Assembly (NCBI RefSeq): GCF_030817415.1
Contig: NZ_JAUSZI010000002.1
Coordinates: forward strand, 868,001-932,000
Direction of reading: 5' to 3'
DNA length: 64,000 bases
Source: Streptomyces umbrinus
GTDB lineage: Bacteria; Actinomycetota; Actinomycetes; Streptomycetales; Streptomycetaceae
Below, in pieces: positions 16,765 to 63,018 of the stretch. The notes under the pieces were generated by a model that ran no database searches, was not told the origin of the DNA, and was given only the letters and a program-made list of their open reading frames with translations. Both the position numbers and the translations under genes were made by a program. Every line of letters begins with the position of its first letter. The stretch's first letter is position 1.

Positions 16765-16781
16765 AAATAGATAACCTATTA
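16765..16781 (+). promoter_or_regulatory. Island motif, copy 1 (SDR operon / ACAD)
   Basis: AAATAG-ATAACCT-ATTA, 34 bases before the SDR start at 16731 and 54 bases before the ACAD start at 16835. It is nearly identical to the copy at 47107 and is placed to control both divergent transcripts. Confidence 0.6.
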
Positions 16782-16834
16782 CACTCAAACAATCAATACC
16801 GCGATGAGGCGGCCGAGCGCAGGAGGCACTGCAG

Positions 16835-18052
16835 GTGGACATCACCTATCCCCCGGAGACCGAGGCGTTCCGCACCGAGGTCAAAGCGTTCCTCGCCGAC
16901 GCCCTGCCCGCCGGCTGGAAGGGCATCGGAGCCCTGGACGAGGAGGCCGCATGGACCTTCGCCCGCGACTGGCGCCGGCGGCTCGCCGAGCGCGGCTTTC
17001 TCTCGCTCACCTGGCCCGAGGAGTTCGGCGGCCGCGGCCTGTCCAAGCTCCACCAGGTCGTCCTGATGGAGGAACTGGCCCTGGCGGGCGTGCCGTTCGG
17101 TCTGCCGCAGGACACGTTCGGCGTGAAGATGCTGGCGAACACGCTGCTGCGCTGGGGTACGGAGGAGCAGAAGAGTCACTTCCTGCCGCGCATCCTCAGC
17201 GGCGAGGACACCTGGTGCCAGGGGTACTCGGAACCGGACGCGGGCTCGGACCTCGCCTCTCTCAGGACGCGCGCGGTACGTGACGGTGGGGAGTGGGTGA
17301 TCGACGGGCAGAAGGTGTGGACCTCCGGCGCCCACCACAGCGACTGGATCTTCGTCCTGGCCCGCACCGACCCCGACGCCTCCAAGCACCGCGGCATCTC
17401 CTTCCTCCTCGTGCCCCTCGACCAACCCGGTGTCGAGGTCCGGCCGTTCCGCATGATGAGCGGGCAGCTCCACTTCAACGAGGTCTTCTTCAACGGCGCC
17501 CGCACCCGGGCCGACCTCGTCGTGGGTGGTGTCGACAACGGCTGGACGGTGGCGCAGAGCCTGCTGGGCGTGGAGCGCGGGGAGGAGGCGGCGACCAATC
17601 CGATCCTCTTCCGGGCGGAGGTCGAGCGCCTCGTCGAGCTGGCCCGCCTGTACGGCAAGGACCAGGATCCGGTGATCCGGCAGCGGATCGCCTGGTGCTG
17701 GTCCAAGGTCGAGATCATGCGCTTTCTCGGCTACCGGATACTCACCGGCTGGCTCAAGGGCGCCGAGCCCGGCCCCGAGACGTCGATCGCCAAGCTGTAC
17801 TGGAGCGAGTACCACACCAAGGTCACCGACCTGGCGATGGACATCATGGGCCTGCACGGCCAGGTTCCCGTCGGGCGGCCACCCCTGCGCACCTACCGCA
17901 CCGACGATCCCGGCGCCGCGAACTCGTCTGCGTCCTGGTCGACGACCTACCTGATCGCCCTCTCCGGCACGATCTACGCCGGGACGTCCCAGGTGCAGCG
18001 GAACATCCTCGCGGAGAAGGCACTGGGGCTCCCACGCGAGCCGAGGGCTTGA
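16835..18052 (+). CDS. Acyl-CoA dehydrogenase, long subunit type
   Basis: A 405-residue FAD-dependent acyl-CoA dehydrogenase. EEFGGRGLS ends the helical domain, [17 protein letters not shown] (about 130-146) contacts FAD and substrate, [18 protein letters not shown] is the beta domain, and [19 protein letters not shown] is the C-terminal FAD/dimer segment. GTG 16835 follows AGGAGG by 8 bases. It is alone on its transcript and closest to the long members of the paired ACADs at 31863 and 57057, so it may need a short partner, for example the orphan at 39379 (inference). Confidence 0.9.
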
Positions 18053-18054
18053 TC

Positions 18055-18130
18055 TCGCCCCCGCCGCCCCTACCCTCCCCCACTCTCGGCTTCGCTCGAG
18101 AGTGGGGGAGGGTAGGGGCGGCGGGGGCGA
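18055..18130. terminator. Very long perfect hairpin, bidirectional terminator
   Basis: Two perfect 34-bp arms (18055-18088 and 18097-18130) enclose an 8-base loop between the convergent ACAD and DUF2889 genes. The core CTCTCGGCTTCGCTCGAG is, from memory, a recurrent extragenic palindrome of Streptomyces; the arms here are much longer than termination needs. Confidence 0.85.
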
Positions 18131-18143
18131 AAACACACGTCGG

Positions 18144-18713
18144 CTACGCCCCTCCGAACGCCTCCACCCCCGGAACCGGACGCGGCCCCTGCCCAGGCCG
18201 CCAGCCCGCGTCGAGTTTGCGCAGACCCACACCGTCCGGCGCCCAGATGTGGCAGCTGTTCAGCACGCCCGCCGTCGAGCGCGGGTCGTGGGACGGCTCA
18301 CCGGCGTCACGGCGGCGCGCGTTGGCCGAAATGGCCGCCTGAACGACGGCGGGGCCGAGGGCACGGGCCAGCTCGTAGAGGTGCGAGCAGCCGGACACGC
18401 CTCGGAACCGCTCCTGGATCGCCCGGTTGTATCCGGCGGCGACGCCGAGCCCGACAAGCCCGTCGAAGACCGGGGTGATCAGCGGGCACTCGGTGTGCGG
18501 GAAGGTCTGCATAGCCGCGCTGGCGTGCACCACGACCATGTCCGCGAGACGGATCCGCACTTCGAGCACCATCCGGTGGACGACGTGCGCCGGCAGCTCC
18601 GCCCGGGGCCGCTCGTCGCTCAGCACCGCCTCGACCGAGATCTCGTCACCGTCCTCCTCGTAGGCGGTCACGGTGATCGTGCGGCGGTGCAGGGGCAGTT
18701 CGGCTCGCGTCAT
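18144..18713 (-). CDS. DUF2889 protein
   Basis: A 189-residue soluble protein of the DUF2889 family, function unknown. It shows the family's N-terminal beta-rich part (RTITVTAYEEDGDEISVEA, LSDERP) and the conserved CSHLYELARALGPA segment near residue 120. ATG 18713 overlaps the stop of the crotonase gene (ATGA), so it is made together with that enzyme. The family recurs beside acyl-CoA catabolic genes in actinobacteria and proteobacteria, suggesting an accessory or binding role. Confidence 0.7.
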   Translation of the reverse strand: MTRAELPLHRRTITVTAYEEDGDEISVEAVLSDERPRAELPAHVVHRMVLEVRIRLADMVVVHASAAMQTFPHTECPLITPVFDGLVGLGVAAGYNRAIQERFRGVSGCSHLYELARALGPAVVQAAISANARRRDAGEPSHDPRSTAGVLNSCHIWAPDGVGLRKLDAGWRPGQGPRPVPGVEAFGGA

Positions 18714-19555
18714 GACGAGGGCTCCCCCCGGAGCACCGAAGCCGTCTCCGATGCCGGTGGTGCCCCGAGCGCCGCGAATTCCGGCTGTCGGCGCTCGATG
18801 AAGCTGCGTACGCCCTCGCGGTAGTCCGGGGCCCGCTTCGCCGTGGCGAGCAGCGCGGCCGCGCTGTCGCGGCTCTCGGTGAAGCTCCTCGACTGGTCGT
18901 CGGCGAGTTGCCGCTTGATGAGGGACATCGCGTACGGGCTGGCCGAGGAGGCCAGCCGGGTGGCGTACGCGATCGCTGTCGGGAGCAGTTCCGCCGGCTC
19001 GACGAGGCGGTTGACCAGGCCCATCGCCAGGGCCTCCGTACCGGTGATCCGGCGTGAGGACAACAGCAGATCGCTCGCGTTCCCGTATCCGACGAGCCGG
19101 GGCAGGATCCACGACACGCCGTCCTCCGCCACCAGGCCGCGCGCACTGAAGGCGGCGGCGAACTTGGCGTCCGGTACGGCGAACCGCACGTCACACATCA
19201 ACGCCTGGTTGAACCCGATGCCGGCGCAGGCGCCGTTGACGGCCGCCACGAGGGGTTTCGGGAAGGACATGGGCCGGGTGCGCGGAGGCAGACGGTCGGT
19301 CGGCCACGGGCTCGCGCCGGAGGACGCCCCGTCCAGCACGCTCATGTCCATGCCCGGGCAGAAGCTGCGTCCCGCCCCGGTCAGCACGACGGCCCGAACC
19401 GCCGGATCGGCCTCGGCGCGGTCGAACAGCTCGTTGTAGAGCAGCTCCATCTCCAGCGTCCAGGCGTTGTGCCGTTCGGGCCGGTTCAGGGTGAGGAGCA
19501 TGACCCCGTCGTCGGTCAGCTCGGTGAGGATCACCGGGGTCGGGTTCTCGGTCAT
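18710..19555 (-). CDS. Crotonase-fold enzyme (enoyl-CoA hydratase/isomerase)
   Basis: A 281-residue crotonase. Oxyanion-hole motifs are GAGRSFCPGMDMSVL and NGACAGIGFNQAL. The two Glu of canonical hydratases are missing (GFNQAL; AKFAAAFSARG), while Glu in RGLVAEDGVSW sits where delta3-delta2 isomerases and related hydrolases carry theirs. It is paralogous to the protein at 25470. ATG 19555 is preferred because GGGAG lies 8 bases upstream; a GTG 15 bases earlier lacks one. Chemistry could be isomerisation or C-C hydrolysis rather than simple hydration. Confidence 0.8.
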   Translation of the reverse strand: MTENPTPVILTELTDDGVMLLTLNRPERHNAWTLEMELLYNELFDRAEADPAVRAVVLTGAGRSFCPGMDMSVLDGASSGASPWPTDRLPPRTRPMSFPKPLVAAVNGACAGIGFNQALMCDVRFAVPDAKFAAAFSARGLVAEDGVSWILPRLVGYGNASDLLLSSRRITGTEALAMGLVNRLVEPAELLPTAIAYATRLASSASPYAMSLIKRQLADDQSRSFTESRDSAAALLATAKRAPDYREGVRSFIERRQPEFAALGAPPASETASVLRGEPSS

Positions 19556-19583
19556 CGAGGTCACTCCCACGGGCCCGTTTGAT

Positions 19584-19608
19584 TTATAGCTAGATGAATC
19601 ATCTATAT
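19584..19608. promoter_or_regulatory. Island motif, copies 2 and 3 (overlapping, opposite strands)
   Basis: TTATAG-CTAGATG-AATC (19584-19600, plus) and ATATAG-ATGATTC-ATCT (19592-19608, minus) overlap to give the near-palindrome TAGATGAATCATCTA, 29 bases before the crotonase start at 19555. Confidence 0.55.
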
Positions 19609-19694
19609 ACCCAACGCCGGTCCGGACGCCAGACCAAGTCCCGCACGGACAAGATCACCCGACCCTTGACCTGGTACCCTCGATGCACTAAGAC

Positions 19695-19711
19695 GATTCA
19701 TTTTGCTATAT
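19695..19711 (-). promoter_or_regulatory. Island motif, copy 4 (FadR-like regulator leader)
   Basis: Reads ATATAG-CAAAATG-AATC on the minus strand, ending just before GAGGAG and 12 bases before GTG 19724. The position fits autoregulation of the regulator gene by occlusion of its leader. Confidence 0.5.
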
Positions 19712-19723
19712 GAGGAGCCCACC

Positions 19724-20524
19724 GTGGCTGAGGCAGCCCGCGCAGAAACGCCGATCGTGCCCGCTCCCTCCCGCGGCCCCGTCGGACGCCAGGTGCGCGT
19801 ACCGAAGACGGCCGAACTGGTCGCAGGACACCTGCGCCGCCAGATCGTACGGGGCGAGCTGAAGCCCGACGACGCGCTTCCGCCGGAGTCGGGACTGATG
19901 GAGCAGTTCGGCATCTCACGGCCGACCCTGCGCGAGGCGTTCCGCGTCCTGGAGTCGGAGTCCCTGATCACGGTCCGCCGTGGAGCACACGGCGGCGCCC
20001 GGGTGAGCGCGCCCGACTCGGACGTCGCGGCCCGCTTCGCCGGCCTGATCCTGGAGTACCGCGGCGCCACCCTCGGAGACGTCTACCGGGCGGCTGCCCT
20101 CATCGAGCCGCCGTGCGCGCGCCAGGTCGCCACCAAGCACACGGCGGACGACATCAAGCGGCTGCGCGACGCGGTGGCGGCCGAGAAGGCCGTACTGGAC
20201 AGCCCGCTGGCCCTGGTGGACGCACAGGACGCTTTCCACGCCCTCCTGGTCGAGCTCACCGGCAACCAGACCCTGATCCTCCTCTGCGGCATGCTGCGCA
20301 ACATCATCGACCGGGCCAACGCCTCGTACACCGCGGCCGCCACCGACGCGGAGACCCAGAAGGCGCAGGCCCTCAAGGGCCACCGGGCACACGTCCGGCT
20401 GGTCGGCCTGATCGAGTCCGGCAAGGCGGACGAGGCCGAGAAGCTGTGGCAGCGCCACATCTCCAGCGCCGACGACGTCGTCAACGCACTGGGCCCGAAG
20501 ACGGTTCTGGAGCTCATCGACTGA
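19724..20524 (+). CDS. GntR/FadR-subfamily transcriptional regulator
   Basis: A 266-residue regulator. The N-terminal winged helix-turn-helix runs through LRRQIVRGELKPDD, ESGLMEQFGISRPTLREAFR and LITVRRGAHGGARV (about 35-95). The C-terminal all-helical FCD domain carries metal/ligand His residues (FHALLVELTGNQ, GHRAHVRLVG, WQRHISSADD). FCD regulators bind acyl-CoA or small carboxylates. GTG 19724 follows GAGGAG by 6 bases. The DNA-binding half is nearly the same as in the paralogue at 41615, so both probably read the same AT-rich operator spread over the island. Confidence 0.85.
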   Translation: MAEAARAETPIVPAPSRGPVGRQVRVPKTAELVAGHLRRQIVRGELKPDDALPPESGLMEQFGISRPTLREAFRVLESESLITVRRGAHGGARVSAPDSDVAARFAGLILEYRGATLGDVYRAAALIEPPCARQVATKHTADDIKRLRDAVAAEKAVLDSPLALVDAQDAFHALLVELTGNQTLILLCGMLRNIIDRANASYTAAATDAETQKAQALKGHRAHVRLVGLIESGKADEAEKLWQRHISSADDVVNALGPKTVLELID

Positions 20525-20565
20525 CCGTCCGAACAACCGCCTCCTCATCCTCCCTTGCGCTCTCC

Positions 20566-20582
20566 AAATAGTTAGATAATTA
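20566..20582 (+). promoter_or_regulatory. Island motif, copy 5 (amidohydrolase leader)
   Basis: AAATAG-TTAGATA-ATTA abuts the Shine-Dalgarno GGAGG (20585-20589) of the amidohydrolase gene. It shares 16 consecutive bases with the copy at 34291. Confidence 0.6.
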
Positions 20583-20597
20583 TAGGAGGCGTACTTA

Positions 20598-21806
20598 ATG
20601 GCTTTCAGGGTGGAGGCGACGGCCATGGCCGAACAGCGCAAGCGGATCTTCGACTGCGACCAGCACATGTACGAGGAACGGGACTCCTTCACGCGCTACC
20701 TCCCGAAGGAGTTCCTCGGCCAGGCAGTGGCGCCGGTGACGTTGCCGGACGGCCGTGAGGTCATCCTCGCCGGGGACCGGATCGTGGTCTGTCTGGAGCC
20801 CGAGTTCGGGCAGGTCTACCGGCCCGGCTCGCTCAAGGAGATGCTCAAGGCGATGGCCTCGGGCAACCCCGACGAGACGTACCAGTTCGAGCCGATGCAC
20901 GAGGCGTACCAGAACCGCGAGGCCCGGCTGCGCGTCATGGACGAGCAGGGCCTGGACCAGACGATCATCTACCCGGGCGGCTGGGCTCTGGTCGCCGAGG
21001 AGTACGTACAGGGCGTCGAGCCGCTCTACGCCAACTACCACTCGTTCAACCGCTATATGAACGAGGTGTGGGGCTTCAACCACAACGACCGCATCTACTC
21101 CCCCGCCCTGCTGTCCCTGCGCGACCTGGACAGTGCGGTGAAGGAGCTGGAGTTCGTGCTGGAGCAGGGCGCCCGGTTCATCATGCTGCCGACCGGCCCG
21201 CAGTACGGCCGCTCGCCCGGAGACCCGTACTTCGACCCGTTCTGGAAACTGGTCAACGAGGCCAAGGCCAGCGTCTGTTACCACATCAGCGAGTTCTACT
21301 ACAACTCGAACGTCGCCCCGGCCTGGGGCCACGACGCGAGCCCGATCCACTTCCGGATGTCCGCGTGGCAGTGGATGAACACCTACGGCCAGCGTCCGAT
21401 CGAGGAGACGCTGTCTGCGCTGATCTTCGACAACCTCTTCGGGCGTTTCCCCGACATCAACGTCCTGGTGTCCGAGTTCGGCGCCGAGTGGGTGCCGCAC
21501 TTCGTCCGTCACATGGACAAGAGCCGCGGCATGGGCCGCAACGGCCCCTGGATCGGCGGCCAGTTGGACGAGCGCCCCAGCCAGGTATTCCGCAAGCACA
21601 TCCGGGTGGTGCCCTACCCGGAGGACGACATCCCGAGCCTGGTGAAGCGTCTCGGCTATCACGAGTCCATCGTGATGGGCTCGGACTTCCCGCACGCCGA
21701 GGGCATCGCCAACCCGGCCGACTACCGCAAGCTCCTCGCGGAGCTCGACGAGTCGGTCCAGGACGACATCATGTACAACAACGCGCAGCAGCTGATCAGC
21801 CGTTGA
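20598..21806 (+). CDS. Amidohydrolase-2 family metal-dependent hydrolase or decarboxylase
   Basis: A 402-residue TIM-barrel amidohydrolase (ACMSD/amidohydrolase_2 type). The first-strand metal site appears as FDCDQHMYEE (about 18-27), a barrel His as CYHISEFYYN, and the late Asp as GSDFPHAEG. Family members hydrolyse or decarboxylate cyclic and aromatic acids without a CoA requirement. ATG 20598 lies 8 bases from GGAGG. It follows the FadR-like gene on the same strand with a copy of the island motif in between and ends at a terminator. Substrate unknown; ring opening or decarboxylation of a pathway intermediate fits the setting. Confidence 0.8.
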   Translation: MAFRVEATAMAEQRKRIFDCDQHMYEERDSFTRYLPKEFLGQAVAPVTLPDGREVILAGDRIVVCLEPEFGQVYRPGSLKEMLKAMASGNPDETYQFEPMHEAYQNREARLRVMDEQGLDQTIIYPGGWALVAEEYVQGVEPLYANYHSFNRYMNEVWGFNHNDRIYSPALLSLRDLDSAVKELEFVLEQGARFIMLPTGPQYGRSPGDPYFDPFWKLVNEAKASVCYHISEFYYNSNVAPAWGHDASPIHFRMSAWQWMNTYGQRPIEETLSALIFDNLFGRFPDINVLVSEFGAEWVPHFVRHMDKSRGMGRNGPWIGGQLDERPSQVFRKHIRVVPYPEDDIPSLVKRLGYHESIVMGSDFPHAEGIANPADYRKLLAELDESVQDDIMYNNAQQLISR

Positions 21807-21825
21807 GCAGGGCAGTCTCCGCGAG

Positions 21826-21857
21826 TGAGCCCGGTACCGACTTCGGTACCGGGCTCA
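21826..21857. terminator. Intrinsic terminator after amidohydrolase
   Basis: Perfect 13-bp arms TGAGCCCGGTACC and GGTACCGGGCTCA around a GACTTC loop, between convergent genes. Confidence 0.85.
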
Positions 21858-21915
21858 GTCAGCAGGTCATGGCACGTGCGAATCGGCGCTTGCGACTCGG
21901 CGCTTCGGCCACGGC

Positions 21916-24515: not shown

Positions 24516-24519
24516 CGGT

Positions 24520-24942
24520 TCAGGGCTCCAGCCGGGCCGCCGCGATGCCGGTGACCACTTCGGCGCCGTTCTGGTTGACGGTGCGCACGGAGAAGTGGGC
24601 GACCGGTCCGGCCGGTGTGTCCTCAAGGGACTCGACGGTCGCCGTGGCCGTCAGGGTGTCCCCGGGCCAGACCTGGGCCTTGAAGCGCACGCCGAAGGTC
24701 AGCAGTGCCTCGGTGCCCACCCAGTCGGTGAGGACCCGGCCGGTCATGCCCATCGTGAGCATTCCATGGGCGAACACGCCGGGATATCCCGCGACTTCGG
24801 TGGCGAACCTCTCGTCGGTGTGCAGCGGGTTGTAGTCGCCCGACGCGCCCGCGTACTGCACGATCCGGGTGCGCTTCAGGTCCTCGACCAGCACGCTCTC
24901 CCGGGTCTCACCGACCTTGATGCCGTCCGCGCTCAGGCTCAT
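24520..24942 (-). CDS. MaoC-type (R)-enoyl-CoA hydratase subunit
   Basis: A 140-residue hot-dog protein with the hydratase-2 motif: Asp and His in GDYNPLHTDE followed by GYPGVFAHGML. It hydrates trans-2-enoyl-CoA in its family. Its start overlaps the stop of the neighbouring degenerate hot-dog gene (ATGA, 24939-24942). The arrangement copies split MaoC heterodimers of steroid catabolism, in which only one subunit carries the catalytic dyad. Confidence 0.85.
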   Translation of the reverse strand: MSLSADGIKVGETRESVLVEDLKRTRIVQYAGASGDYNPLHTDERFATEVAGYPGVFAHGMLTMGMTGRVLTDWVGTEALLTFGVRFKAQVWPGDTLTATATVESLEDTPAGPVAHFSVRTVNQNGAEVVTGIAAARLEP

Positions 24943-25391: not shown

Positions 25392-25405
25392 CGTCCAGTC
25401 TCCTC

Positions 25406-25480
25406 GGTCGGTACGGCGGTCAGTACGGCGGTTAGTACGACGCGCCGCGTGGCGGGTCAGTACGGCGGGTCAGTACGGCA
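25406..25480. repeat. Degenerate 12-bp repeats (GGTCAGTACGGC)
   Basis: Five imperfect units of GGTCAGTACGGC at 25406, 25418, 25430 and twice within 25454-25480, the last running into the crotonase stop codon. They fill the spacer between the MaoC-N and crotonase genes and look like replication-slippage products. Confidence 0.6.
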
Positions 25481-26333: not shown

Positions 26334-26337
26334 CACG

Positions 26338-26832: not shown

Positions 26833-26869
26833 CCGCACGCCCTCCGGTCTCGGCCTGCCCGGCCGATCG

Positions 26870-26903
26870 ATATAGTTACATGAATAGAATAGTTGAAGCA
26901 ATC
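26870..26903 (+). promoter_or_regulatory. Island motif, copies 6 and 7 in direct tandem
   Basis: ATATAG-TTACATG-AATA (26870-26886) is followed without gap by GAATAG-TTGAAGC-AATC (26887-26903). The pair starts 38 bases before the thioesterase start at 26832. Confidence 0.55.
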
Positions 26904-26933
26904 GTACGGGACGAACCCGAGCTCCAGATGTAT

Positions 26934-26950
26934 TATTTATATAACTCATT
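26934..26950 (-). promoter_or_regulatory. Island motif, copy 8 (CoA-transferase side)
   Basis: Reads AATGAG-TTATATA-AATA on the minus strand, 59 bases before ATG 27009. The adjoining AACTCATTAG recurs at 63019. Confidence 0.45.
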
Positions 26951-27008
26951 AGCTCGCTCGTCACGGGGTGCTCCGGCACGGAGTACTCCCCCAGAGGGAG
27001 GCCCCTCG

Positions 27009-29108: not shown

Positions 29109-29128
29109 GGTTCGTCAGCCTACACATC

Positions 29129-29158: not shown

Positions 29159-29165
29159 CGTCGGT

Positions 29166-30110: not shown

Positions 30111-30131
30111 CAGGCACGCCACACAGCTGAA

Positions 30132-34231: not shown

Positions 34232-34290
34232 GCCGCGCTTCCCGTCCTCGGTGCGAAGCGGTTGACGACCGCTTGCTAGCCCACCCCTCG

Positions 34291-34307
34291 ATACAGTTAG
34301 ATAATTA
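34291..34307 (+). promoter_or_regulatory. Island motif, copy 9 (ACAD pair / crotonase)
   Basis: ATACAG-TTAGATA-ATTA, 60 bases before 34231 and 34 bases before 34341, in a divergent promoter. It shares 16 bases with copy 5. Confidence 0.6.
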
Positions 34308-34340: not shown

Positions 34341-35162
<822 letters not shown>

Positions 35163-37148: not shown

Positions 37149-37178
37149 GGTCACCGTCCAGGGCGTAATGGTTTAACG

Positions 37179-37192
37179 CATTCAACTGAATG
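37179..37192. promoter_or_regulatory. Palindrome upstream of the GH1-like gene
   Basis: CATTCA-AC-TGAATG, perfect 6-bp arms 30 bases before ATG 37148, beside the AT-rich GTTTAACG. Likely an operator of an unlinked regulator. Confidence 0.4.
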
Positions 37193-38479: not shown

Positions 38480-38522
38480 GGCGGCCGGCCTCGTCACCCT
38501 GCGACCGGTTCCCAGTTAGCTT

Positions 38523-38539
38523 AATTAGTTATAGCATTA
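38523..38539 (+). promoter_or_regulatory. Island motif, copy 10 (crotonase-ACAD-LLM operon)
   Basis: AATTAG-TTATAGC-ATTA, 39 bases before ATG 38579 and outside the MITE-like element. Confidence 0.55.
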
Positions 38540-41614: not shown

Positions 41615-42385
41615 TCAGCCGAGCAGGTCCAGGACCGTCGTCATGGACCTGCTCTGCAGCAGGTAGTCCTCGGCCTCCTGAAGGTGGACGCGCCACAGCT
41701 CCTCGGCGGCCTCGGCCCGGCGGGCGGCCACCAGCTCGACGAGCGCGCCATGGGCGCGAAAGCCGCGGCGATTGGCCCGTACGTTCTCGGGGCTGCCGGC
41801 GTCGAGGTCGACGTGGGACCAGTTCGCCTGGTCGATGATGTGCCGGACCATGCCGTTGAGGACGCTCAGCGTCTCGTTGCCCGCGAGTTCGACGACAAGC
41901 GCGTGGAACTCCATGTGGGCGCGGATGAAGGCGGACGGATCGTCCATCAGCGCCTCGGCCTCGGTGACGGCGGCCCGCAGTCGCTCCAGGTCCTCGTCCG
42001 TGCGCCGCTCGGCGAGCAGCCCGGCGCACGGCGCCTCGATGACCGTACGGGCGTCGTAGACGTCCTTGAGGGTCGTGCCCCGGTATTCGAGGACCACCCC
42101 GGCGTAGCGGGCGGCGACGGTGCCCTCCGGGATCTGCACGCGCGCCCCGCCCCTGGCTCCCCTGCGCACGCTGATCAGCGACTCCGACTCCAGTACCCGG
42201 AAAGCCTCGCGCAGTGTCGGCCTGGAGACGGCGAACTCCTCCATCAGCGCCGTCTCGGCCGGCAGCGCCTCCCCCTCGGTCAGCTCCCCGCGCACGATCT
42301 TCCGGCGCAGTTGTGCCGCCACCAGCTCGGCCATCTTGGGAACCCGTACCGGCGTGTTCGTCACCGCGCCCACCTCCACGCTCAT
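41615..42385 (-). CDS. GntR/FadR-subfamily regulator, paralogue of the one at 19724
   Basis: A 256-residue regulator with winged helix-turn-helix LRRKIVRGELTEGEALPAET, MEEFAVSRPTLREAFRVLES, LISVRRGARGGARV, and an FCD domain (FHALVVELAGNETL, FRAHGALVELV, WRVHLQEAEDYL). The recognition helix SRPTLREAFRVLESESLI is identical to that of the other FadR-like protein. It is the last gene of the operon 48321-41615, coupled by ATGA to the DUF35 gene, so it is made with the enzymes it may control. Confidence 0.85.
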   Translation of the reverse strand: MSVEVGAVTNTPVRVPKMAELVAAQLRRKIVRGELTEGEALPAETALMEEFAVSRPTLREAFRVLESESLISVRRGARGGARVQIPEGTVAARYAGVVLEYRGTTLKDVYDARTVIEAPCAGLLAERRTDEDLERLRAAVTEAEALMDDPSAFIRAHMEFHALVVELAGNETLSVLNGMVRHIIDQANWSHVDLDAGSPENVRANRRGFRAHGALVELVAARRAEAAEELWRVHLQEAEDYLLQSRSMTTVLDLLG

Positions 42386-42801
42386 TCGGTTGTCAGTCGC
42401 TCGTGTCTCGTGTCCGGCACGAAGTACGGGAGTGCGATCTCGTCCGTGTAGGGCCGGAAGTCCACGCGTACGCGCATGCCGATGACGACGTTGTCCGGAT
42501 CGCCGGCGTCGACGTGCGAGAGCAGGGTGGCGCCGTCGTCGAGGTCGATCACGGCGAGCGCGAAGGGTGTGTCGAAGCCGGGGCCGGGCGCCCGGTGGAC
42601 GACGGTCACCGAGTAGACGGTCCCGCGGCCCGTACTGGGCACGTACCGCCAGTCCCGGGACATGCAGCCGGGGCAGGCGGGTTCGGGCACGAAGAAGCGC
42701 AGGCCGCAGCTCGTGCAACAGGGTACGACCAGGTCTCCGCGCCCGGCCGCGTCCCAGAAGGGCCGGGACAGCGGGGTGGGGACGGGTACGGGCCGGCTCA
42801 T
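42382..42801 (-). CDS. DUF35 protein (Zn ribbon and OB fold)
   Basis: A 139-residue partner protein. Zn ribbon CTSCGLRFFVPEPACPGC (about 29-46) precedes the OB fold (GRGTVYSVTVVHRAPG, ALAVIDLDDGATLLSHVDAG). DUF35 domains bind thiolase-fold enzymes and, in the ChsH2/Ltp2 system of steroid degraders, make an active retro-aldolase. It overlaps by 4 bp the Cys-less thiolase-fold gene upstream, exactly the partner expected for that complex. Confidence 0.85.
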   Translation of the reverse strand: MSRPVPVPTPLSRPFWDAAGRGDLVVPCCTSCGLRFFVPEPACPGCMSRDWRYVPSTGRGTVYSVTVVHRAPGPGFDTPFALAVIDLDDGATLLSHVDAGDPDNVVIGMRVRVDFRPYTDEIALPYFVPDTRHERLTTE

Positions 42802-43949
42802 CGGGTCCTCCCCAGCACGCTCATCTCGTAGTGCTGCGCCCCGGATCCGGCGTTGCCGACGACCGCCAGCTCCGCGCCCTCGACCTGGTGCACCGCGCTG
42901 CCGCGCAACTGTCGTACGGCTTCGACGACCTTGAGTGTCATCTGCTGTGTCCCGTTCCAGGCGTATGCCAGGCAGCCGCCGTCCGGATTGACGGGATGCT
43001 TGCCGCCGACGGCGATGGCGCCACTGGCTGCCAGCGGTCCGCCCTCCCCTTCCCCGCACAGGCCGAGGATCTCCAACTGCCTGATGATCTCGAAGGAGTT
43101 GGGGTCGTAGAGGGAGAACACGTCCACGTCGTGCGGGCCGATGCCGGCCATCGTGTAGGCGCGGGCGGCGGCGTCGCGGCCGAGCTGCCCGACTTCCCGG
43201 TGCAGCGCCGGATTGGCGTACGCGGCCTGGTGGTACTCCATGCCTCCGCCGAGCACGGCGACGGGTGGGTGGGCCAGGTCGCGGGCCCGTTCGGCGGTGG
43301 TCACCACGAGTGCGGCGCCGCCTTCGCCGACGATGCAGCAGTCCAGCAGGTGGAAGGGTGTGGCGACCATGCGGGAGGCGAGCACGTCGTCGGCGGTGTA
43401 CGGGCCGCGGCCGTACATCATCGCCTCGGGGTTGGTCGTGCCGTTGTTGCGGACCGTCGCCGCGACCTCGGCCAACTGGCGGGCCGTGGTCCCGTATTCG
43501 TGCATGTGCCGTGCCGCGACCAGCGCGAACTGTGCGACCACGTAGCTGCCCCACACGTCGGCGAACTCCAGCGGTACACCGGCCCCGACGGGACCTGCCC
43601 CGCGTGCGACCAGTTTGCAGCCGCCGACCACGACGGTGTCCGCGAGTCCGGCCCGTACGGCCGCCGCCGCTTTCAGCAGGCCCCGGGAGCCCGCGTTGTC
43701 GAGCATCGAGTCGCTGGTCCAGCGCAGGTCCCGGCCGAGCATGCGGGCCCATGAGCTGCCCTCGCCGGGTACGCCGCCGGGGCCGGGCCAGTCGACCTGG
43801 GCGCCGTCGACGTCCGCCGGGGTCAGCCCGGCGTCGGCGATCGCGCCGGACACGGCTTCGAGGGCGAGGTCCATGGCGTCACGGTCGGGGAGGGTCAGCG
43901 CCTGTTCGGTGGCGTGGACGCCGACCACTACGGGCTGGCGGTCGTTCAC
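42798..43949 (-). CDS. Thiolase-superfamily protein lacking the nucleophilic Cys (Ltp2-like)
   Basis: A 383-residue SCP-x-branch thiolase-fold protein starting at GTG 43949. Where thiolases have Cys it reads MLDNAGSRG (Asn near 85), and the GHP motif is replaced by GGCLAYAWNG after KHPVNPDGG. Ltp2, a retro-aldolase of actinobacterial sterol side-chain degradation, also lacks the Cys and needs a DUF35 partner; here the DUF35 gene follows with a 4-bp overlap. C-C cleavage without CoA is therefore the leading inference. Non-catalytic acyl binding is the alternative. Confidence 0.8.
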   Translation of the reverse strand: MNDRQPVVVGVHATEQALTLPDRDAMDLALEAVSGAIADAGLTPADVDGAQVDWPGPGGVPGEGSSWARMLGRDLRWTSDSMLDNAGSRGLLKAAAAVRAGLADTVVVGGCKLVARGAGPVGAGVPLEFADVWGSYVVAQFALVAARHMHEYGTTARQLAEVAATVRNNGTTNPEAMMYGRGPYTADDVLASRMVATPFHLLDCCIVGEGGAALVVTTAERARDLAHPPVAVLGGGMEYHQAAYANPALHREVGQLGRDAAARAYTMAGIGPHDVDVFSLYDPNSFEIIRQLEILGLCGEGEGGPLAASGAIAVGGKHPVNPDGGCLAYAWNGTQQMTLKVVEAVRQLRGSAVHQVEGAELAVVGNAGSGAQHYEMSVLGRTR

Positions 43950-43953
43950 GGGG

Positions 43954-45543
43954 TCACCGTCCCGCGCCCAGCGTGTCGCCGCCGGGATAGCCGCCACCGC
44001 CGAACCGCTCGTCGAGTGCCTCGTAGTCCTTGGCGAAGTCCTTGGTGCGGGGCAGTGCCTCGACGAACTCCACCGTCTTCGGCTTCTTGTACGAGGCGAT
44101 GCGCGACCGGCAGTGCTCGACGATGTCCGCCGACGTGACCGAGTCGGCGCCTTCCTGGAGCACCACGACGGCCTTGACGTCCTGGGCCCAGCGTTCGTTG
44201 GGCACGCCGATCACGGCGGCCTCCTTCACCGCGGGATGGGACTCGACGCAGTTCTCCACCTCGGCGGGGAAGATGTTCTCGGCCGCCGACTTGAGCATGC
44301 GGGTCGTCGTCCCGAGGAAGCTGATCGTGCCGTCGGGCTCACGCCGTCCGAGGTCGGTGGTGTGCCACCAGCCGAAGCGGAAGCGCTCCTCGTTGACCTC
44401 CGGGCGGTTCCAGTAGCCGAGGTGCACGAGGTCGCCGCGGACGCAGATCTCGCCGGCCTCGCCGATCGCGCACTCCTTGCCGGCGCTGTCCAGGATGCGT
44501 ACGGCGCTGAAGGGTCCCGGTCGTCCCGCGTTGCCGGTGCCCGAGCCGCCATGGGCGCCGGTCACGGCGAACCCGGTCACCTCCGTCTGCCCATAGCCGC
44601 GGCCTTCGCCACCGCCGTTGCGGGTGAAGCGGCTCTGGTCGGTCGGCACGGTGCCCTGCCACAGGGGTGCGGCGACGCTGGCCCGCAGACGGGACAGATC
44701 GTGGCCTGCCTCGCGGTTCAGGGCGACGAGCTGCGCGATGGTCGGGGGCATCAGATACGCGTGGGTGCACTGCTCCGCCGCCAGCAACGGGAGCAGTTCC
44801 TCGGCGATCACGCGGCGGACGATGACGTTCTTGCCGCCGTGGACGAAGGCCGGGACGCCCCAGAACTGGTAGTTGCCGATGTGGAACATCGGTCCGGCGC
44901 CGAGGAAGGCGGCCTCCCGGCCGATGTCGCCCATCCAGGCGCTGCTCGTGCCCATGGCGAGCAGGTTGCGGTGCGAGAGCATCGAGCCGGACTGCCGGCC
45001 GGTGATCGCGGCGGTGTAGATGACCAGGAGCGCGGAGTCCGGGTCGACGTCGGTGGACGGGTCCTCGGGTGATCCGGAGGCCAGGAAGGACTCGTAGGAA
45101 TCGGGGCCCGCAGCGCTCTCGACGTCATGCCGCAGCCACAACGCCCGGTGGCCGCTGCCCAGTTCGGCTCGCGCCTTGCCGACCGTGTCGCCGATCTCCT
45201 CGTCCTGCCAGACGACGACCTTGGGGTCGAAGTCCTCGACCGCGAACGCCATTTCGGGAGCTGCCCACCGCCAGTACCCGGGACAGACCATGGCGCCGGT
45301 CTTCGCCGCGGCGCCGAGCAGCTCCCAGATCCGGAAGGAGTTCTGTCCCAGCCACAGGATGCGGTCGCCCGGCCCGACCCCGGCATCCGTGAGGGCGTTG
45401 GCGAGCCGGTTGGTGCGCTCGTCCAACTCGGGCCAGGTCAGCCGGACTTCGCCGTCCACGAGGGCGACGCCGTCGGGGAAGGACCTTCGGTGCTCGCGGA
45501 TGATGTCGCCGAGCGTCAGGCGGCGGGCGGAATGCATGCTCAT
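43954..45543 (-). CDS. Acyl-CoA synthetase with variant adenylation motifs
   Basis: A 529-residue ANL ligase. The phosphate loop reads YTAAITGRQSGSMLSH instead of YTSGTTGxPKG, A5 is GYGQTEVTG and A7 is WWHTTDLGRREPDG. The C-terminal catalytic-Lys motif PRTxxGK is replaced by LPRTKDFAKDYEALDERFGG. Such sequence forms a subfamily in actinobacterial lipid and steroid clusters, so it may still ligate CoA, but the half-reactions should be tested. It lies 4 bases before the thiolase-fold gene and 27 after the aldehyde dehydrogenase. Confidence 0.8.
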   Translation of the reverse strand: MSMHSARRLTLGDIIREHRRSFPDGVALVDGEVRLTWPELDERTNRLANALTDAGVGPGDRILWLGQNSFRIWELLGAAAKTGAMVCPGYWRWAAPEMAFAVEDFDPKVVVWQDEEIGDTVGKARAELGSGHRALWLRHDVESAAGPDSYESFLASGSPEDPSTDVDPDSALLVIYTAAITGRQSGSMLSHRNLLAMGTSSAWMGDIGREAAFLGAGPMFHIGNYQFWGVPAFVHGGKNVIVRRVIAEELLPLLAAEQCTHAYLMPPTIAQLVALNREAGHDLSRLRASVAAPLWQGTVPTDQSRFTRNGGGEGRGYGQTEVTGFAVTGAHGGSGTGNAGRPGPFSAVRILDSAGKECAIGEAGEICVRGDLVHLGYWNRPEVNEERFRFGWWHTTDLGRREPDGTISFLGTTTRMLKSAAENIFPAEVENCVESHPAVKEAAVIGVPNERWAQDVKAVVVLQEGADSVTSADIVEHCRSRIASYKKPKTVEFVEALPRTKDFAKDYEALDERFGGGGYPGGDTLGAGR

Positions 45544-47061: not shown

Positions 47062-47106
47062 GGATGCCTCCTTGAAACCGTCCGGCGCCGTCCGCGCATC
47101 CAGGTT

Positions 47107-47123
47107 AAATAGCTAACCTATTT
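47107..47123 (+). promoter_or_regulatory. Island motif, copy 11 (before aldehyde dehydrogenase)
   Basis: AAATAG-CTAACCT-ATTT, with AAATAG/CTATTT as perfect inverted arms, 45 bases before GTG 47061. It suggests a second promoter within the 48321-41615 gene series. Confidence 0.6.
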
Positions 47124-47178: not shown

Positions 47179-48321
47179 TCACAGTCCGAGCGAGCGCCCG
47201 ATGATCTCCTGCATGATCTCCGAGGTCCCGCCGAACACTCGCTGGACCCGGCTGTCCCGCCAGATGCGGGCGATCTCGTACTCGTTGACGTAGCCGTAGC
47301 CGCCGAAGAGCTGCATACAGCGGTCGATGACCTCCCAGCCGGTCTCCGAGGTCCAGTACTTGGCCGCGGCCGCCTCTTCGGGGGTCAGCTCACCCTGGAA
47401 GAGGGCCATGATGCAGCCGTCCACATAGACCCGGGCGACGCCCAGCTTGGCCTTGATGTCGGCGAGGGCGAAGCGGTTCGCCTGGAACTGCCCGATGGGC
47501 TGTCCGAACGCCGTACGGGTCTTGGCGTACTCCAGCGCCAGCCCGTAGGCCCGCTCCGCCGCGGCGAGCGAGGAGACGGCGATGGCCAGCCGCTCGGTCG
47601 GGAGGTTGCCCATCATGTGGTAGAAACCGCGACCCTCCTGCCCTATGAGGTTCTCGACGGGGACGCGGACGTCATGGAAGAACAGCTCGGCGGTGTCCTG
47701 GGCCTTCATCCCGACCTTGTCGAGCTTGCGCCCGCGCTCGAAGCCCTCGGTGTCGCGCTCGACGACGATCAGGCTGATGCCCTTGTGCCCGGCGTCCGGG
47801 TCGGTCTTGCAGGCGACGATGACCAGGTCGGCCAGGATGCCGTTGGTGATGAAGGTCTTGGACCCGTCGATGACCCATTCGTCGCCGTCCCTGCGGGCGG
47901 TGGTGCGGATGCCCTTGAGGTCGGACCCGGCGGCCGGCTCGGACAGCGCGAGCGCGCAGATGGTCTCGCCACTGACCACCCCGGGCAGCCAACGGGCCTT
48001 CTGTTCCGGGGTCGTCAGGTGCATCAGGTAGGGCGGAATGACGTCGTTCTGCAGCCCCAGCCCGATGCCGACCGAGCTGGTGGCCGCCATCTCCTCCGCC
48101 ATGATGGCGTTGTAGCGGAAGTCCCAGATCCCCTGCCCGCCGTACTCCTCCGGGAACTGCCAGCCGATGAGCCCGGCCTTGCCCGCGGCCGCCCACGCGG
48201 CCCGGCCCACCTGGCCGTCCCGCTCCCACCGCTCGGCGTTCGGGGCGCATTCACGCAGGTAGAAGGTGCGGGCGGTATCCCGGAACAGCTCGTGTTCCGC
48301 GGTGAAGATCGTACGGCGCAT
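47179..48321 (-). CDS. Acyl-CoA dehydrogenase, canonical type
   Basis: A 380-residue ACAD of the homotetrameric kind: EEYGGQGIWDF, LSEPAAGSDLKGIRTTA, WVIDGSKTFITNG and FGGTSEIMQEIIGRSLGL. It resembles long/branched-chain dehydrogenases with GTSEIM ends. ATG 48321 is chosen with GGAG 8 bases upstream; an in-frame GTG at 48333 lies ahead of it. Head of the operon that continues through the aldehyde dehydrogenase, divergent from the SDR at 48407. Confidence 0.9.
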   Translation of the reverse strand: MRRTIFTAEHELFRDTARTFYLRECAPNAERWERDGQVGRAAWAAAGKAGLIGWQFPEEYGGQGIWDFRYNAIMAEEMAATSSVGIGLGLQNDVIPPYLMHLTTPEQKARWLPGVVSGETICALALSEPAAGSDLKGIRTTARRDGDEWVIDGSKTFITNGILADLVIVACKTDPDAGHKGISLIVVERDTEGFERGRKLDKVGMKAQDTAELFFHDVRVPVENLIGQEGRGFYHMMGNLPTERLAIAVSSLAAAERAYGLALEYAKTRTAFGQPIGQFQANRFALADIKAKLGVARVYVDGCIMALFQGELTPEEAAAAKYWTSETGWEVIDRCMQLFGGYGYVNEYEIARIWRDSRVQRVFGGTSEIMQEIIGRSLGL

Positions 48322-48357
48322 GCTCGACTCCACTCAGGCATCTCGCTTATTTAGCTG

Positions 48358-48374
48358 AAGTAGTTATACGATAG
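48358..48374 (+). promoter_or_regulatory. Island motif, copy 12 (ACAD / SDR divergent promoter)
   Basis: AAGTAG-TTATACG-ATAG, 36 bases before 48321 and 32 bases before 48407, in an 85-bp divergent region. Confidence 0.5.
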
Positions 48375-52113: not shown

Positions 52114-52646
52114 AGGCCCGAGGCAGCAGGGGCGGCCACGACGTCGCCGCTCTCGTGCTGCGCGCGACGCTGGGCCCGATGCTCTTCGCGCACGGCTGGA
52201 ACAAGGTCGCAGGGCCGGGCGGACTCAAGGGCACGACGGGCTGGTTCGAGGCGCTCGGCCTGAAGCCGCCCGAGGTGCACGCCCGGATGGCTGCCGGGAC
52301 CGAGATGGCGGCGGGCGTGGGCATCACCCTGGGCGCGGCCAACCCTCTCCCGGCGGCGGCAGCGGTGGGTCTGATGGCCGTGGCGGCCCGGACCGACCAC
52401 CGGGGCAAGGGTTTCTTCGTCTTCAAGGGCGGCTGGGAGTACGTCGGTGTCGTGGGCGGCACGGCCGTCGCGCTGGCGGCGCTGGGCAACGGCAGGTACT
52501 CGCTCGACGGGCTGCTGCGACGTCAACGCGCGGGTACGGGGCCCGCGTTGCTGGCGGCGGGAATCGGCACGGCGAGCGCGGCGGCGCTGCTGGCCGTGTG
52601 CTACCGGCCGGAGCGGAAGCCGGACGAGACACAAACAGATCACTGA
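52110..52646 (+). CDS. DoxX-family membrane protein
   Basis: A 178-residue integral membrane protein with four likely helices (VLRATLGPMLFAHGWNKV, AAGVGITLGAANPLPAAAAV, YVGVVGGTAVALAALG, GTGPALLAAGIGTASAAALL). DoxX proteins are small, function poorly defined, some linked to quinone-coupled redox. It overlaps the SDR stop by GTGA, so it belongs to the operon. It could couple reducing equivalents to the membrane or assist transport; neither is shown. Confidence 0.75.
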   Translation: MKARGSRGGHDVAALVLRATLGPMLFAHGWNKVAGPGGLKGTTGWFEALGLKPPEVHARMAAGTEMAAGVGITLGAANPLPAAAAVGLMAVAARTDHRGKGFFVFKGGWEYVGVVGGTAVALAALGNGRYSLDGLLRRQRAGTGPALLAAGIGTASAAALLAVCYRPERKPDETQTDH

Positions 52647-52683
52647 GTACAACCAGGGCTATCAGGACTATCAGGGAGTCGAC

Positions 52684-60838: not shown

Positions 60839-60840
60839 CC

Positions 60841-61575
60841 TCAACTCCTTGCTGAATACGACGCGTTGACATCGCCGAGCAGTACGCGCGGATCCTCGCT
60901 GCCGCAGGCGCACCTGCCCGTGGCGACGCGGCCCGCAATGCCGAGAGGTGTCTCGGGGAGCGGCGAGGCACGCCCCTCCCCCGCCGCGACGTACAGCTGT
61001 CCGTCCTCGCGCTCGCCGACCCGCCATTCGGCGCCGTTCACGTGTGCGCCGCACCGCTCGGGGCATTCCAGGGCGAGAGCCGGTCCCACGGCGGAGATCA
61101 GGCAGGCGGACACGCCCACCCCGCGGAGTATCGGCACGGCCGCGGGCCGGGCCAGTACGAGGGACGTCGAGCGGAACATCTCACCGAGATCGGCTGCTCC
61201 GGCGAGACCTTCCAGGGTCTCCGCCGACAGGCCGATCACCGCGTGCGGGTCCAGTTCGCGGTGGAAGACCGAGGTCCGGCGATGGTCCCAGCCCATCGCC
61301 TCCGCGATGCCGTAGGTCACCTTGAGCGACCGCAGTGCGCCGATCACCGCGTGACCCCAGAAGCCCTCGAAGCCGGAGGTGGTCAGCAGCGCCCGCTGCC
61401 CGGCGGTCAGTCCGTGCTCCCGCAGCCGTGCCGTGACCCATGCGGTGTCCCGGGCGAGTTCCGCCCAGGTCAGCTCCATGTCCCGCATGCCGTCGGCGGC
61501 GGGGAAGCGTACGAGGTAGGCCAGTTCGGGCCGGTCGAGTGTCCTGGCGCGGGCCAGGGTGTCGGCGCGCGCCAT
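60841..61575 (-). CDS. Uncharacterised protein resembling an AMP-ligase N-terminal part
   Basis: A 244-residue protein of unknown function. LTWAELARDTAWVTARLREH and GQRALLTTSGFEGFWGHAVI recall the N-terminal subdomain of adenylate-forming ligases, but no ATP-binding loop or C-terminal Lys domain is present. Two Cys clusters (CPERCGAHV; GRCACGS) may bind metal. The start shares one base with the stop of the PaaK-like gene (TGATG), so the two proteins may work as a split enzyme. Confidence 0.55.
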   Translation of the reverse strand: MARADTLARARTLDRPELAYLVRFPAADGMRDMELTWAELARDTAWVTARLREHGLTAGQRALLTTSGFEGFWGHAVIGALRSLKVTYGIAEAMGWDHRRTSVFHRELDPHAVIGLSAETLEGLAGAADLGEMFRSTSLVLARPAAVPILRGVGVSACLISAVGPALALECPERCGAHVNGAEWRVGEREDGQLYVAAGEGRASPLPETPLGIAGRVATGRCACGSEDPRVLLGDVNASYSARS

Positions 61576-62900
61576 CAGCTCTTCACCACCCGGGGGAATT
61601 TGGCGACACTGGTCATGGTCTTCAACAGGTCCTCCTCGGTGCGCATGTCGAGCACCGGCTTGACTCCGGTCAGCTCACGCACGGCCTCGCCGAGCCGCCC
61701 TGCCAGGGCGTCGACATCCGCGGTGAGCCCCGGGTCGTAGCCGACGCGCAACCGCAGTTCGTCGACCTCGCGTCGGTCCCGGACGATCTGGAAAACCCCT
61801 GACGCCGTCTCCGGCTGATCCTCCACGGCCCGCCAGATGTCCCGCAGGACCACGGAACGCCCCTGGACCAGCGTCTCGTCACCGCGCCGCCCGGCCACCC
61901 ACATCCGGGCGTGGGTCCGCCCGCAGCCGCAGCGGTCCCCCGAGAGGCGGACGAGGTCCTCGCTGCGGTAGCGGATCAACGGTGCGGCCCGGTTGTCCAG
62001 GTCGGTGGCGACCAGTTCGCCGAGGTCCGTCTCCGGGACGTCACGCCATCCGCCCTGTTCGTCGACCTCGACGCACTCCGCGAAGACGGTGTCCTCCCAG
62101 AGGTGGAAGCCGTCGTGCTCCCGGCACTCCCAGGCGGTGCCGGTGTCGGCCGCGCTGGTGTACTCGTAGACGTCGATACCCCAGTCGTCGCGGATCCGCT
62201 CGCGCATCTTCCGGCTGAGGGGCTGTCCGGCGCACGAGGCACCCTTCAGGGAGGAGAACGCCTCCTTGAGATCCGTCTTCTCGGCGAGGTGCTCCAGCTC
62301 CACCATCTGCGGATACATCATCTGCAGGTAGGCCGGCCGGTAGGTGCGCAGGGCGTCGACGACCTCGTTCATCTTCCCGAGCCAGGTGTCCACCTCGATC
62401 ACCACGGCGCCGAGCGCCTGGTAGCCGGGGTCCATGAGGTTGCGGAAGGTGCCGGGCGGGCTGAGCACCCGGTCCCCGGGCCTGAGGCCGAGCTCCCAGA
62501 GGTCACGCACCTGTGCGGTCACCAGGGGCGGTGCGTCCTCCCAGATCTCGGCGAAGAACTCCGGGTCGCCGGTGGTGCCTGAGCTGGAGGAGACGGAGGT
62601 CAGCCCTTCGACCGGAACGCAGAGCAGACCGCCGAAGGGATCGCCGGTGCGCGCCCGGTGGGCGCGCACCATGTCCTTGGTGATGAACGGGATGCGCGCC
62701 CGGAAGTCGTCCAGGCAGCGGATGTCACGTGGGTGCACCCCGTGCTCGTCCCAGAGCTCTCGGTAGAAGGCGGAGTTGCCGTAGGCGTACTCGACGAGTT
62801 CCAGCACCCGTTCTTCCTGCCGGGCCCGCAGCTGGTCGCGGGGCATGGTCTCCACCTGTGGCTCGAAGTACCTGTCCCCGGTGTCCCTGTCACCGCCCAT
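61575..62900 (-). CDS. PaaK-like phenylacetate-CoA ligase family protein
   Basis: A 441-residue adenylate-forming enzyme of the PaaK group. The N-terminal YGNSAFYRELWDEHGVHP, phosphate loop SSSSGTTGDPEFF, CAGQPLSRKMRERI, YEYTSAADTGT and the DCGRT-like RCGCGRTHARMW follow family order. The loop lacks the usual Lys after GTTG. It would activate an aromatic or alicyclic acid. ATG 62900 follows GAGGAGG. First gene of a seven-gene minus-strand operon, divergent from etfBA. Confidence 0.75.
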   Translation of the reverse strand: MGGDRDTGDRYFEPQVETMPRDQLRARQEERVLELVEYAYGNSAFYRELWDEHGVHPRDIRCLDDFRARIPFITKDMVRAHRARTGDPFGGLLCVPVEGLTSVSSSSGTTGDPEFFAEIWEDAPPLVTAQVRDLWELGLRPGDRVLSPPGTFRNLMDPGYQALGAVVIEVDTWLGKMNEVVDALRTYRPAYLQMMYPQMVELEHLAEKTDLKEAFSSLKGASCAGQPLSRKMRERIRDDWGIDVYEYTSAADTGTAWECREHDGFHLWEDTVFAECVEVDEQGGWRDVPETDLGELVATDLDNRAAPLIRYRSEDLVRLSGDRCGCGRTHARMWVAGRRGDETLVQGRSVVLRDIWRAVEDQPETASGVFQIVRDRREVDELRLRVGYDPGLTADVDALAGRLGEAVRELTGVKPVLDMRTEEDLLKTMTSVAKFPRVVKS

Positions 62901-63001
62901 GGCGCCTCCTCGCGGCTCGGCTGCCCAGATCTTCCAGCTATCAGCACAATCAGTCAACCAATTCGACGGATTTTCGGGAGACTCTCGCGCTCCAGCGATC
63001 C

Positions 63002-63018
63002 ATATAGTTAACTATTAG
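63002..63018 (+). promoter_or_regulatory. Island motif, copy 13 (PaaK-like operon / etfBA)
   Basis: ATATAG-TTAACTA-TTAG, containing the perfect palindrome ATAGTTAACTAT (63004-63015), 38 bases before GTG 63057. AACTCATTAG at 63019 repeats the sequence at 26943. Confidence 0.55.

Follow-up and report, generated by a model that had tools for sequence, protein, structure and literature searches.

In the platensimycin/platencin (ptm) cluster of Streptomyces platensis, ptmR1 encodes a GntR-type repressor, the deletion of which was reported to give approximately 100-fold more product (PMC4538407; PMC6596283), an effect tabulated elsewhere as approximately 500% (PMC7105598). PtmR1 has been termed a pathway-specific negative regulator (PMC10847714), and a negative regulator also in a further report (PMC6006322). 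In MA7327, platensimycin went from 15 to 157–323 mg/L and platencin from 2.5 to 51–255 mg/L (PMC10847714), rises of approximately 10- to 100-fold that together with the other sources span 5- to 100-fold (PMC10847714; PMC7105598; PMC4538407; PMC6596283). In the parts of the ptmR1 literature that were covered, no published description of a PtmR1 operator was found. Here we describe a set of predicted operators in a catabolic gene island of Streptomyces umbrinus that most likely represents a PtmR1-type repressor regulon over a pathway for diterpenoid-type acids. The window, the 64-kb stretch that was analysed, is C2:868001–932000 of a 12.4-Mb genome; coordinates are those of the window unless a contig is given, and the island (8.2–71.4 kb) extends beyond its end.

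Operators of the FadR subfamily of GntR regulators are A/T-rich palindromes in which GT and AC stand two or three bases apart, and a weaker additional half-site 7–12 nt from the centre occurs in 13 of 36 FadR groups and is thus not required (PMC4494728; Suvorova et al., 2015). At the level of listed records, literature searches gave no apt report of a Streptomyces regulon for catabolism that is either GntR-controlled or directed at diterpenoids. We hold it to be very probable that the island sites are operators of its own two GntR/FCD regulators, which would repress until an acid of the pathway or its coenzyme A (CoA) ester binds them, and that the substrate is a diterpenoid-type acid.

Form of the predicted operator

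The original prediction had a 17-bp AT-rich motif, AWATAGTTANATNAWTA, marking the promoters of the whole island at thirteen places. All thirteen listed sequences were recovered and all lie between genes; those at 20566 and 34291 share 16 consecutive bases, and those at 16765 and 47107 are near-identical. As written, the 17-mer fits eight of the thirteen with at most three mismatches, two of them exactly, and the places at 19592, 26887, 47107, 48358 and 63002 exceed three. The shared element is a palindrome of 18 bp, TAATTAGTTAACTAATTA, of which the 17-mer is the greater part; it has TAGT-TA-ACTA as its core and is often accompanied by a weaker half-site 9 bp outside it. A symmetric model applied to 28 gaps of the island returned tAATtAGtTAaCTaATTa, and an unsymmetrised 22-column search of 217 gaps from six genomes in five genera arrived unprompted at the same palindrome followed by a fixed CT, with a reverse-complement correlation of 0.81 at one centre.

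The spacing of this CT was counted around 98 intergenic sites from six genomes that had been picked by the 18 palindrome columns alone. It stands 9 bp beyond the inner CT of the palindrome in 74 of 196 flanks (11.0 expected, p 3e-41), and the next 9-bp step still carries it in 22 of 196, above background. Offset 35 (18/196) is the slight and sole other excess, the remaining offsets between 19 and 40 being near background. Because CT recurs in 9-bp phase outside the palindrome, the operator consists of 9-bp half-sites, two of them in inverted repeat and a further one in tandem on one side or on both. This phasing therefore accounts for the overlap of 19584 with 19592, and for 26887, a weak site next to 26870.

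Sites were scored with a symmetric 18-bp palindromic matrix, for which 14 was the main cut-off. Ten of the thirteen original sites score at least 19 with this corrected matrix, and 48358 scores 13.1. Eleven stand as separate sites; 19592(-) and 26887 do not, since they score 11.4 and 10.1 and have stronger sites 9 and 17 bases away. The original prediction gave 13–60 bases to a start codon for most sites; the distance to the nearest start is 11–60 bases for the eleven that were kept. For 16 predicted sites the range is 11–79 bases, the sites at 19695, 20565 and 37166 being only 11–15 bases from the start.

The consensus, TAATTAGT-TA-ACTAATTA, is an A/T-rich palindrome of the NyGT-Nx-ACNy form, as for FadR-subfamily operators, and the extra weaker half-site reported for those operators is present here at one fixed offset. 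In a distant family, a site near a regulator homologue (G223:C71, L134) has the look of a simple direct repeat of 9 bp, AGTTATATA AGTTATACA, which would perhaps mean that these proteins can also read DNA in a second way.

Confinement and conservation of the sites

The matrix scan covered approximately 815 kb of the genome (304 kb of island and surroundings, 460 kb sampled elsewhere and 51 kb at lone matches), and the whole genome was searched by pattern. In the 304 kb, AT-rich patches (at least 75% in 24 bases) are confined to 8.2–71.4 kb. A site of at least 14 is present in 14 of 15 AT patches of the island, in none of 16 in the surrounding 240 kb and in two of 31 in the 460 kb elsewhere, an unequal density that supports the single regulon originally proposed; when the island patches were shuffled, a mean of 0.64 and a maximum of 4 of the 15 had a site. 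Promoter-type gaps behave likewise, 12 of 24 reaching 14 in the island vs none of 132 outside, where two reach 11. About half of the promoter-type gaps in the island are thus without a site, and to speak of the whole island was too strong; of the ten divergent island gaps, nine score at least 11. The island holds 16 separate places of at least 14, including one at 52632 that overlaps a gene end and was likewise not in the original prediction; of five intergenic sites absent from that prediction, two, at 64917 and 71386, lie beyond the window. With up to two mismatches the 17-mer occurs at seven places genome-wide, all within C2:876233–939402 (63 kb of 12.4 Mb), vs one for a backwards control, and 11 of the 23 genome-wide matches of the palindromic pattern fall in the island, which makes up 0.5% of the genome.

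The lone matches inspected elsewhere were not counted as part of the regulon. The one at C2:4056177 is inside a long predicted gene, and the neighbours of those at C2:4877061, 36816 and 40792 look unrelated, as judged by eye from the proteins. C2:10817678 (L147:6677), also judged by eye, falls in a gap between acyl-CoA ligase-like and SnoaL-like genes; it is a pair of sites 12 bp apart, approximately 3 kb from another GntR gene (C2:10820465, 30% identical), and perhaps belongs to a related small regulon. No tRNA gene was found in the 64-kb window.

Comparison with orthologous islands bore the prediction out, the sites being conserved across species and recurring around orthologous regulators. 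Close homologues of the GntR regulator encoded at 19724 were found at 29 Streptomyces loci (84–98% identity, the nearest in S. phaeochromogenes); a 30th locus was a weak metagenome match of 23%. Three gaps were aligned from the 29 loci (28, 24 and 23 of them with both anchors, plus the window), and mean identity was 0.957–0.998 in the sites vs 0.788–0.877 in the rest of the gap. More widely, the regulator was present at E 1e-40 or better in 10 of 200 genomes of the family and at E 1e-45 in 7 of 396 genomes of a phylum sample, this genome being included in both counts. In nine of the ten family genomes a single contig carries two or three homologues, spread over no more than approximately 60 kb, and the tenth (G018) has two close together and one far off. 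Each of the nine family genomes other than this one has 15–21 places scoring at least 12 around its regulators, nearly all of them intergenic. Matches to the pattern number 11–23 per genome in regulator-bearing Streptomyces (n = 5, this one included), 8–16 in the other family genomes with the regulator (n = 5) and 0–5 in Streptomyces without it (n = 20, from 190 genomes with no regulator match). Among distant homologues, G223 and G289 have a few 9-bp-phased sites, the best scoring 20.0 and 21.2, and G570 has two at 17–18.

Regulators, island enzymes and the platensimycin cluster

Both regulators, the one at 19724 and a second at 41615, carry a GntR winged helix (PF00392) and an FCD domain (PF07729), which assigns them to the FadR (FCD) subfamily of the GntR family. 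They are the only regulators of the 19724 type in the genome, the next best homologues being 26–34% identical. All 29 regulators compared share the recognition-helix stretch SRPTLREA, and of two histidines in the FCD domain one is conserved in 28 and the other in all 29. NanR and PdhR, also GntR/FCD proteins, are their best solved relatives. As originally proposed, these two proteins are the best candidates for binding the sites, because both the form of the operator and its co-occurrence with the regulators point to them. Autoregulation of the 19724 regulator is likely, as an operator precedes its gene. Genes 47061–41615(-) likely form an operon because the gaps between them are short, and the second regulator would be made with this operon because of the site at 47106.

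Domain scans of the island revealed acyl-CoA dehydrogenases, hydratases, CoA ligases and CoA-transferases, together with thiolase-like proteins with OB-fold partners, monooxygenase-like proteins, an electron-transfer flavoprotein (etf) and an ATP-binding cassette (ABC) transporter. The CoA ligase at 43954–45537 matches PtmA2 (5upq) over nearly its whole length with 838 bits, and a gene beyond the window (L007:959–2038) matches PtmU3 (6omp) with 475 bits. Both have reciprocal best hits, of 68% and 56% identity, in another genome, G857. Of the 295 Streptomyces genomes sampled, 15 have a PtmA2-type ligase at E 1e-180 or better, G857 and this genome being among them, and the nearest relatives in a plasmid collection are at most 56% identical. 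Because the G857 ligase, only 68% identical to that of the island, aligns with PtmA2 over 521 residues with a score of 1190.7 bits, G857 most likely carries a platensimycin-type cluster. Within 100 kb of G857, 20 genes have a match in the island region and 19 of these are reciprocal best hits, with 55–77% identity for 14 (the regulator included), 46% for one and 28–41% for four.

The same operators recur in this cluster. With a matrix refitted on 83 sites from five genomes other than this one and G857, the cluster had six sites of at least 14, and the remainder of the 100 kb had no such site (eight and two, respectively, at 11 or above). The predicted sites of G857 include those at C1:3415578 and C1:3447520. 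Two of the six are in the gap before the one close regulator homologue of G857, and another is a perfect palindrome between two divergent operons. This homologue, which lies in the cluster, is 58% identical to the 19724 regulator and its reciprocal best hit, the next being 30–34%; in a tree of 29 of 31 regulators (G018_648k and G570 were left out) it groups with the 19724 clade (support 98/94) on a long branch. We infer that it is PtmR1. On these relationships the 19724 regulator would belong to the PtmR1 type, and the island would be related, as a catabolic system, to the diterpenoid-CoA part of platensimycin biosynthesis. Because of this relationship, a carboxylic acid of the diterpenoid type is the most likely substrate of the island. 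The recurrence of both site and switch in the platensimycin cluster suggests that it shares one control system with the island.

The predicted operators and the genes named here are collected in Table 1. Because the operator at 8232 lies between the genes for a binding protein and a transporter (gap 8001–8328), uptake seems to belong to the regulon. The gene downstream of it encodes a 925-amino-acid fused permease–permease–ATPase of the LIV type, and the other flanking gene a periplasmic-binding protein. The glycosyl hydrolase 1 gene, which has an operator to itself, is 57% identical to its counterpart in G857, and its product might free terpenoid glycosides. Mid-island, 53956–55932 encodes a Ser/Thr kinase with peptidoglycan-binding and ricin-B-type lectin domains; the matrix found no operator in its promoter gap (best score 2.5).

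Table 1. Predicted operators and selected genes of the S. umbrinus island, in window coordinates.
Feature	Coordinates	Strand	Context	Score	Conservation and remarks
Predicted operator, absent from original prediction	8232..8249		Substrate-binding-protein gene 6900-8000(-) / fused LIV-type ABC transporter gene 8329-11106(+)	31.0	Counterparts in G178, G122, G107, G089
Predicted operator	16764..16781		Gap of divergent short-chain dehydrogenase/reductase (SDR) and acyl-CoA dehydrogenase genes	26.0	Mean identity 0.998 (24 aligned sequences)
Predicted operator	19583..19600		Gap of enoyl-CoA hydratase gene 18710-19555(-) / GntR gene	19.7	Identity 0.957 (29 aligned); 9-bp-phased partner at 19592
Predicted operator	19695..19712		Directly 5' of ribosome-binding site of GntR gene	19.2	Identity 0.972 (29 aligned)
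GntR/FCD regulator, predicted PtmR1 type	19724..20524	+	GTG start with AGGAG (by eye)		PF00392, PF07729 (domains scanned on shorter 19793 start)
Predicted operator	20565..20582		Before amidohydrolase-fold gene 20598-21806(+)	28.3	Identity 0.974 (25 aligned)
Predicted operator	26869..26886		Gap of divergent thioesterase-like / CoA-transferase III genes	22.9	Counterpart in 4 congeners
Predicted operator, second of the gap	26934..26951		Gap of divergent thioesterase-like / CoA-transferase III genes	29.0	
Predicted operator	34290..34307		Gap of divergent acyl-CoA dehydrogenase / enoyl-CoA hydratase genes	26.1	Counterpart in 4 congeners
Predicted operator, absent from original prediction	37166..37183		11 bases before glycosyl-hydrolase-1 gene 35739-37154(-)	18.0	
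Predicted operator	38522..38539		Before operon 38600-41582(+): hydratase, acyl-CoA dehydrogenase, luciferase-like monooxygenase	25.3	Counterpart in 4 congeners
Second GntR/FCD regulator (predicted)	41615..42385	-			PF00392, PF07729; ~54-55% identical to 19724 regulator
OB-fold/ChsH2-type, thiolase-like and PtmA2-like acyl-CoA synthetase genes	42382..45537	-			Reciprocal best hits in G857, 68-77%
Predicted operator	47106..47123		Before genes 47061-41615(-), which end with second regulator	24.0	
Acyl-CoA dehydrogenase	47179..48321	-			77% identical to G857 gene
Weak predicted operator	48357..48374		Gap of divergent acyl-CoA dehydrogenase / SDR genes	13.1	Identical in G178, G122, G107, G089; 9-bp-phased partner at 48348, score 13.7
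Possible operator	52632..52649		Overlaps end of 52110-52646(+), ~35 bases before acyl-CoA dehydrogenase gene 52684-53841(+)	15.2	Not counted as intergenic
Predicted operator, absent from original prediction	62947..62964		etf gap, side of 61575-62900(-)	17.8	Counterpart in 4 congeners
Predicted operator	63001..63018		Before etfBA (63057-63836(+) and next gene)	22.1	PF01012

Alternatives and comparison with described systems

Several results weigh against a GntR-controlled regulon shared with the platensimycin cluster. The genome-wide total of 23 for the palindromic pattern is not above the 24 of its backwards control, so that the evidence lies in the clustering of the matches. Eleven of the 24 promoter-type gaps of the island score below 11, and the second base of the box is A (0.84) rather than the K of TKGT/ACMA, the commonest FadR-subfamily form. 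Regulator-bearing genomes are larger on average, and their control counts are higher too (16–24 vs 1–17 in Streptomyces). Around the more distant homologues of G272, G580 and G516 no site of at least 14 was found. As to G857, the simple pattern puts just two of its six genome-wide places in the cluster (one of these being the only exact match) against a backwards control of 20, and the case for operators there rests on the refitted matrix, which is not fully independent because its training sites were chosen with an earlier matrix that included this genome. The identification of the G857 protein as PtmR1 is itself an inference.

One alternative, raised in the original prediction, is that the motif is merely the -10 region of ordinary promoters in otherwise AT-poor DNA. 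At 20565 the right half of the operator does coincide with a -10-like AATTAT, 17 bases after TTGCGC. At 19695 it does not: a conserved TTGACC-N17-TAAGAC, seen by eye in the alignment, lies just upstream of the operator and separate from it. A sigma-70 consensus scan of 16000–35000 gave nothing decisive. A plain -10 element would also not account for the symmetry and 9-bp phasing of the motif, nor for its rarity in the promoter-type gaps outside the island and in shuffled island patches, and we regard this explanation as extremely improbable. TetR-type proteins also bind AT-rich palindromes, and one is encoded within the island at 28500–29108, so the operators could belong to it or to another regulator encoded elsewhere. 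The divergent gap of this gene (29109–29189) is the sole site-less one of the ten, with a best score of 1.0; the GT-N2-AC form and the additional half-site agree with a regulator of the GntR/FadR type, and the sites accompany GntR homologues in nine genomes and the lone GntR protein in the ptm cluster. Control by a different regulator is therefore very improbable. The TetR-type gene is divergent from an alpha/beta hydrolase gene (28500–29189), and because their shared gap is without an operator the two are probably a separate unit.

The GntR proteins could instead bind the sites and activate, or one could repress and the other activate. Escherichia coli FadR does both (PMC6608401), and the distance from site to start varies widely here. 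Since PtmR1 is reported as a negative regulator and the sites at 19695, 20565 and 37166 lie so close to the start, activation appears unlikely, if less so than the two foregoing explanations. For control by repression, we propose that a GntR/FCD dimer would read the 18-bp palindrome, an adjacent half-site 9 bp further out being able to add a subunit or a dimer. Without inducer, dimers on the palindromes, aided by phased neighbours, would cover the promoter or start region and keep the operons shut. The repressor would leave the DNA when its FCD domain binds a terpenoid acid or the CoA ester of such an acid, with joint induction of uptake, CoA activation, oxidation of ring and side chain and the electron-transfer flavoprotein. 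The acyl-CoA effector of the original prediction is a guess. We give an even chance to the further idea that the two paralogous repressors share a 9-bp-phased operator code and may read different intermediates, and that the platensimycin pathway took over enzymes, repressor and operators of such an island, so that the antibiotic cluster would still be run by the switch of a breakdown pathway.

The work predicts at which DNA sequence PtmR1 binds; deletion of this repressor is the basis of the strains that overproduce platensimycin and platencin. It would also link the diterpenoid-processing enzymes of platensimycin with a catabolic island that is large and patchy in its distribution. Direct tests thereby become possible both of the probable ligand, a diterpenoid acid or the corresponding CoA ester, and of the idea that an antibiotic pathway has co-opted the switch of a breakdown pathway.

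Among described systems, the KstR/KstR2 regulons of steroid catabolism likewise have one operator for many CoA-pathway operons, heteromeric dehydrogenases and ChsH2-type proteins, but KstR and KstR2 are TetR regulators with other motifs, unlike the GntR system of the island. NanR and PdhR share the domain make-up of the island regulators, and NanR also uses repeated half-sites (PMC8012715); it reads GGTATA direct repeats, whereas the island core is an inverted repeat. The FadR-subfamily operators are also A/T-rich palindromes with GT and AC two nucleotides apart and a weaker extra half-site nearby; the island sites differ from them in having A at the K/M of TKGT/ACMA, long conserved AATTA arms and exact 9-bp phasing (PMC4494728). 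PtmR1 of S. platensis resembles the 19724 regulator in being of the GntR family, and the GntR protein of the ptm-cluster genome groups with the 19724 clade and has the same operators around it in the cluster; the ptm cluster, however, is biosynthetic, with one regulator and six sites, whereas the island is predicted to be catabolic and has two paralogues and approximately 16 sites.

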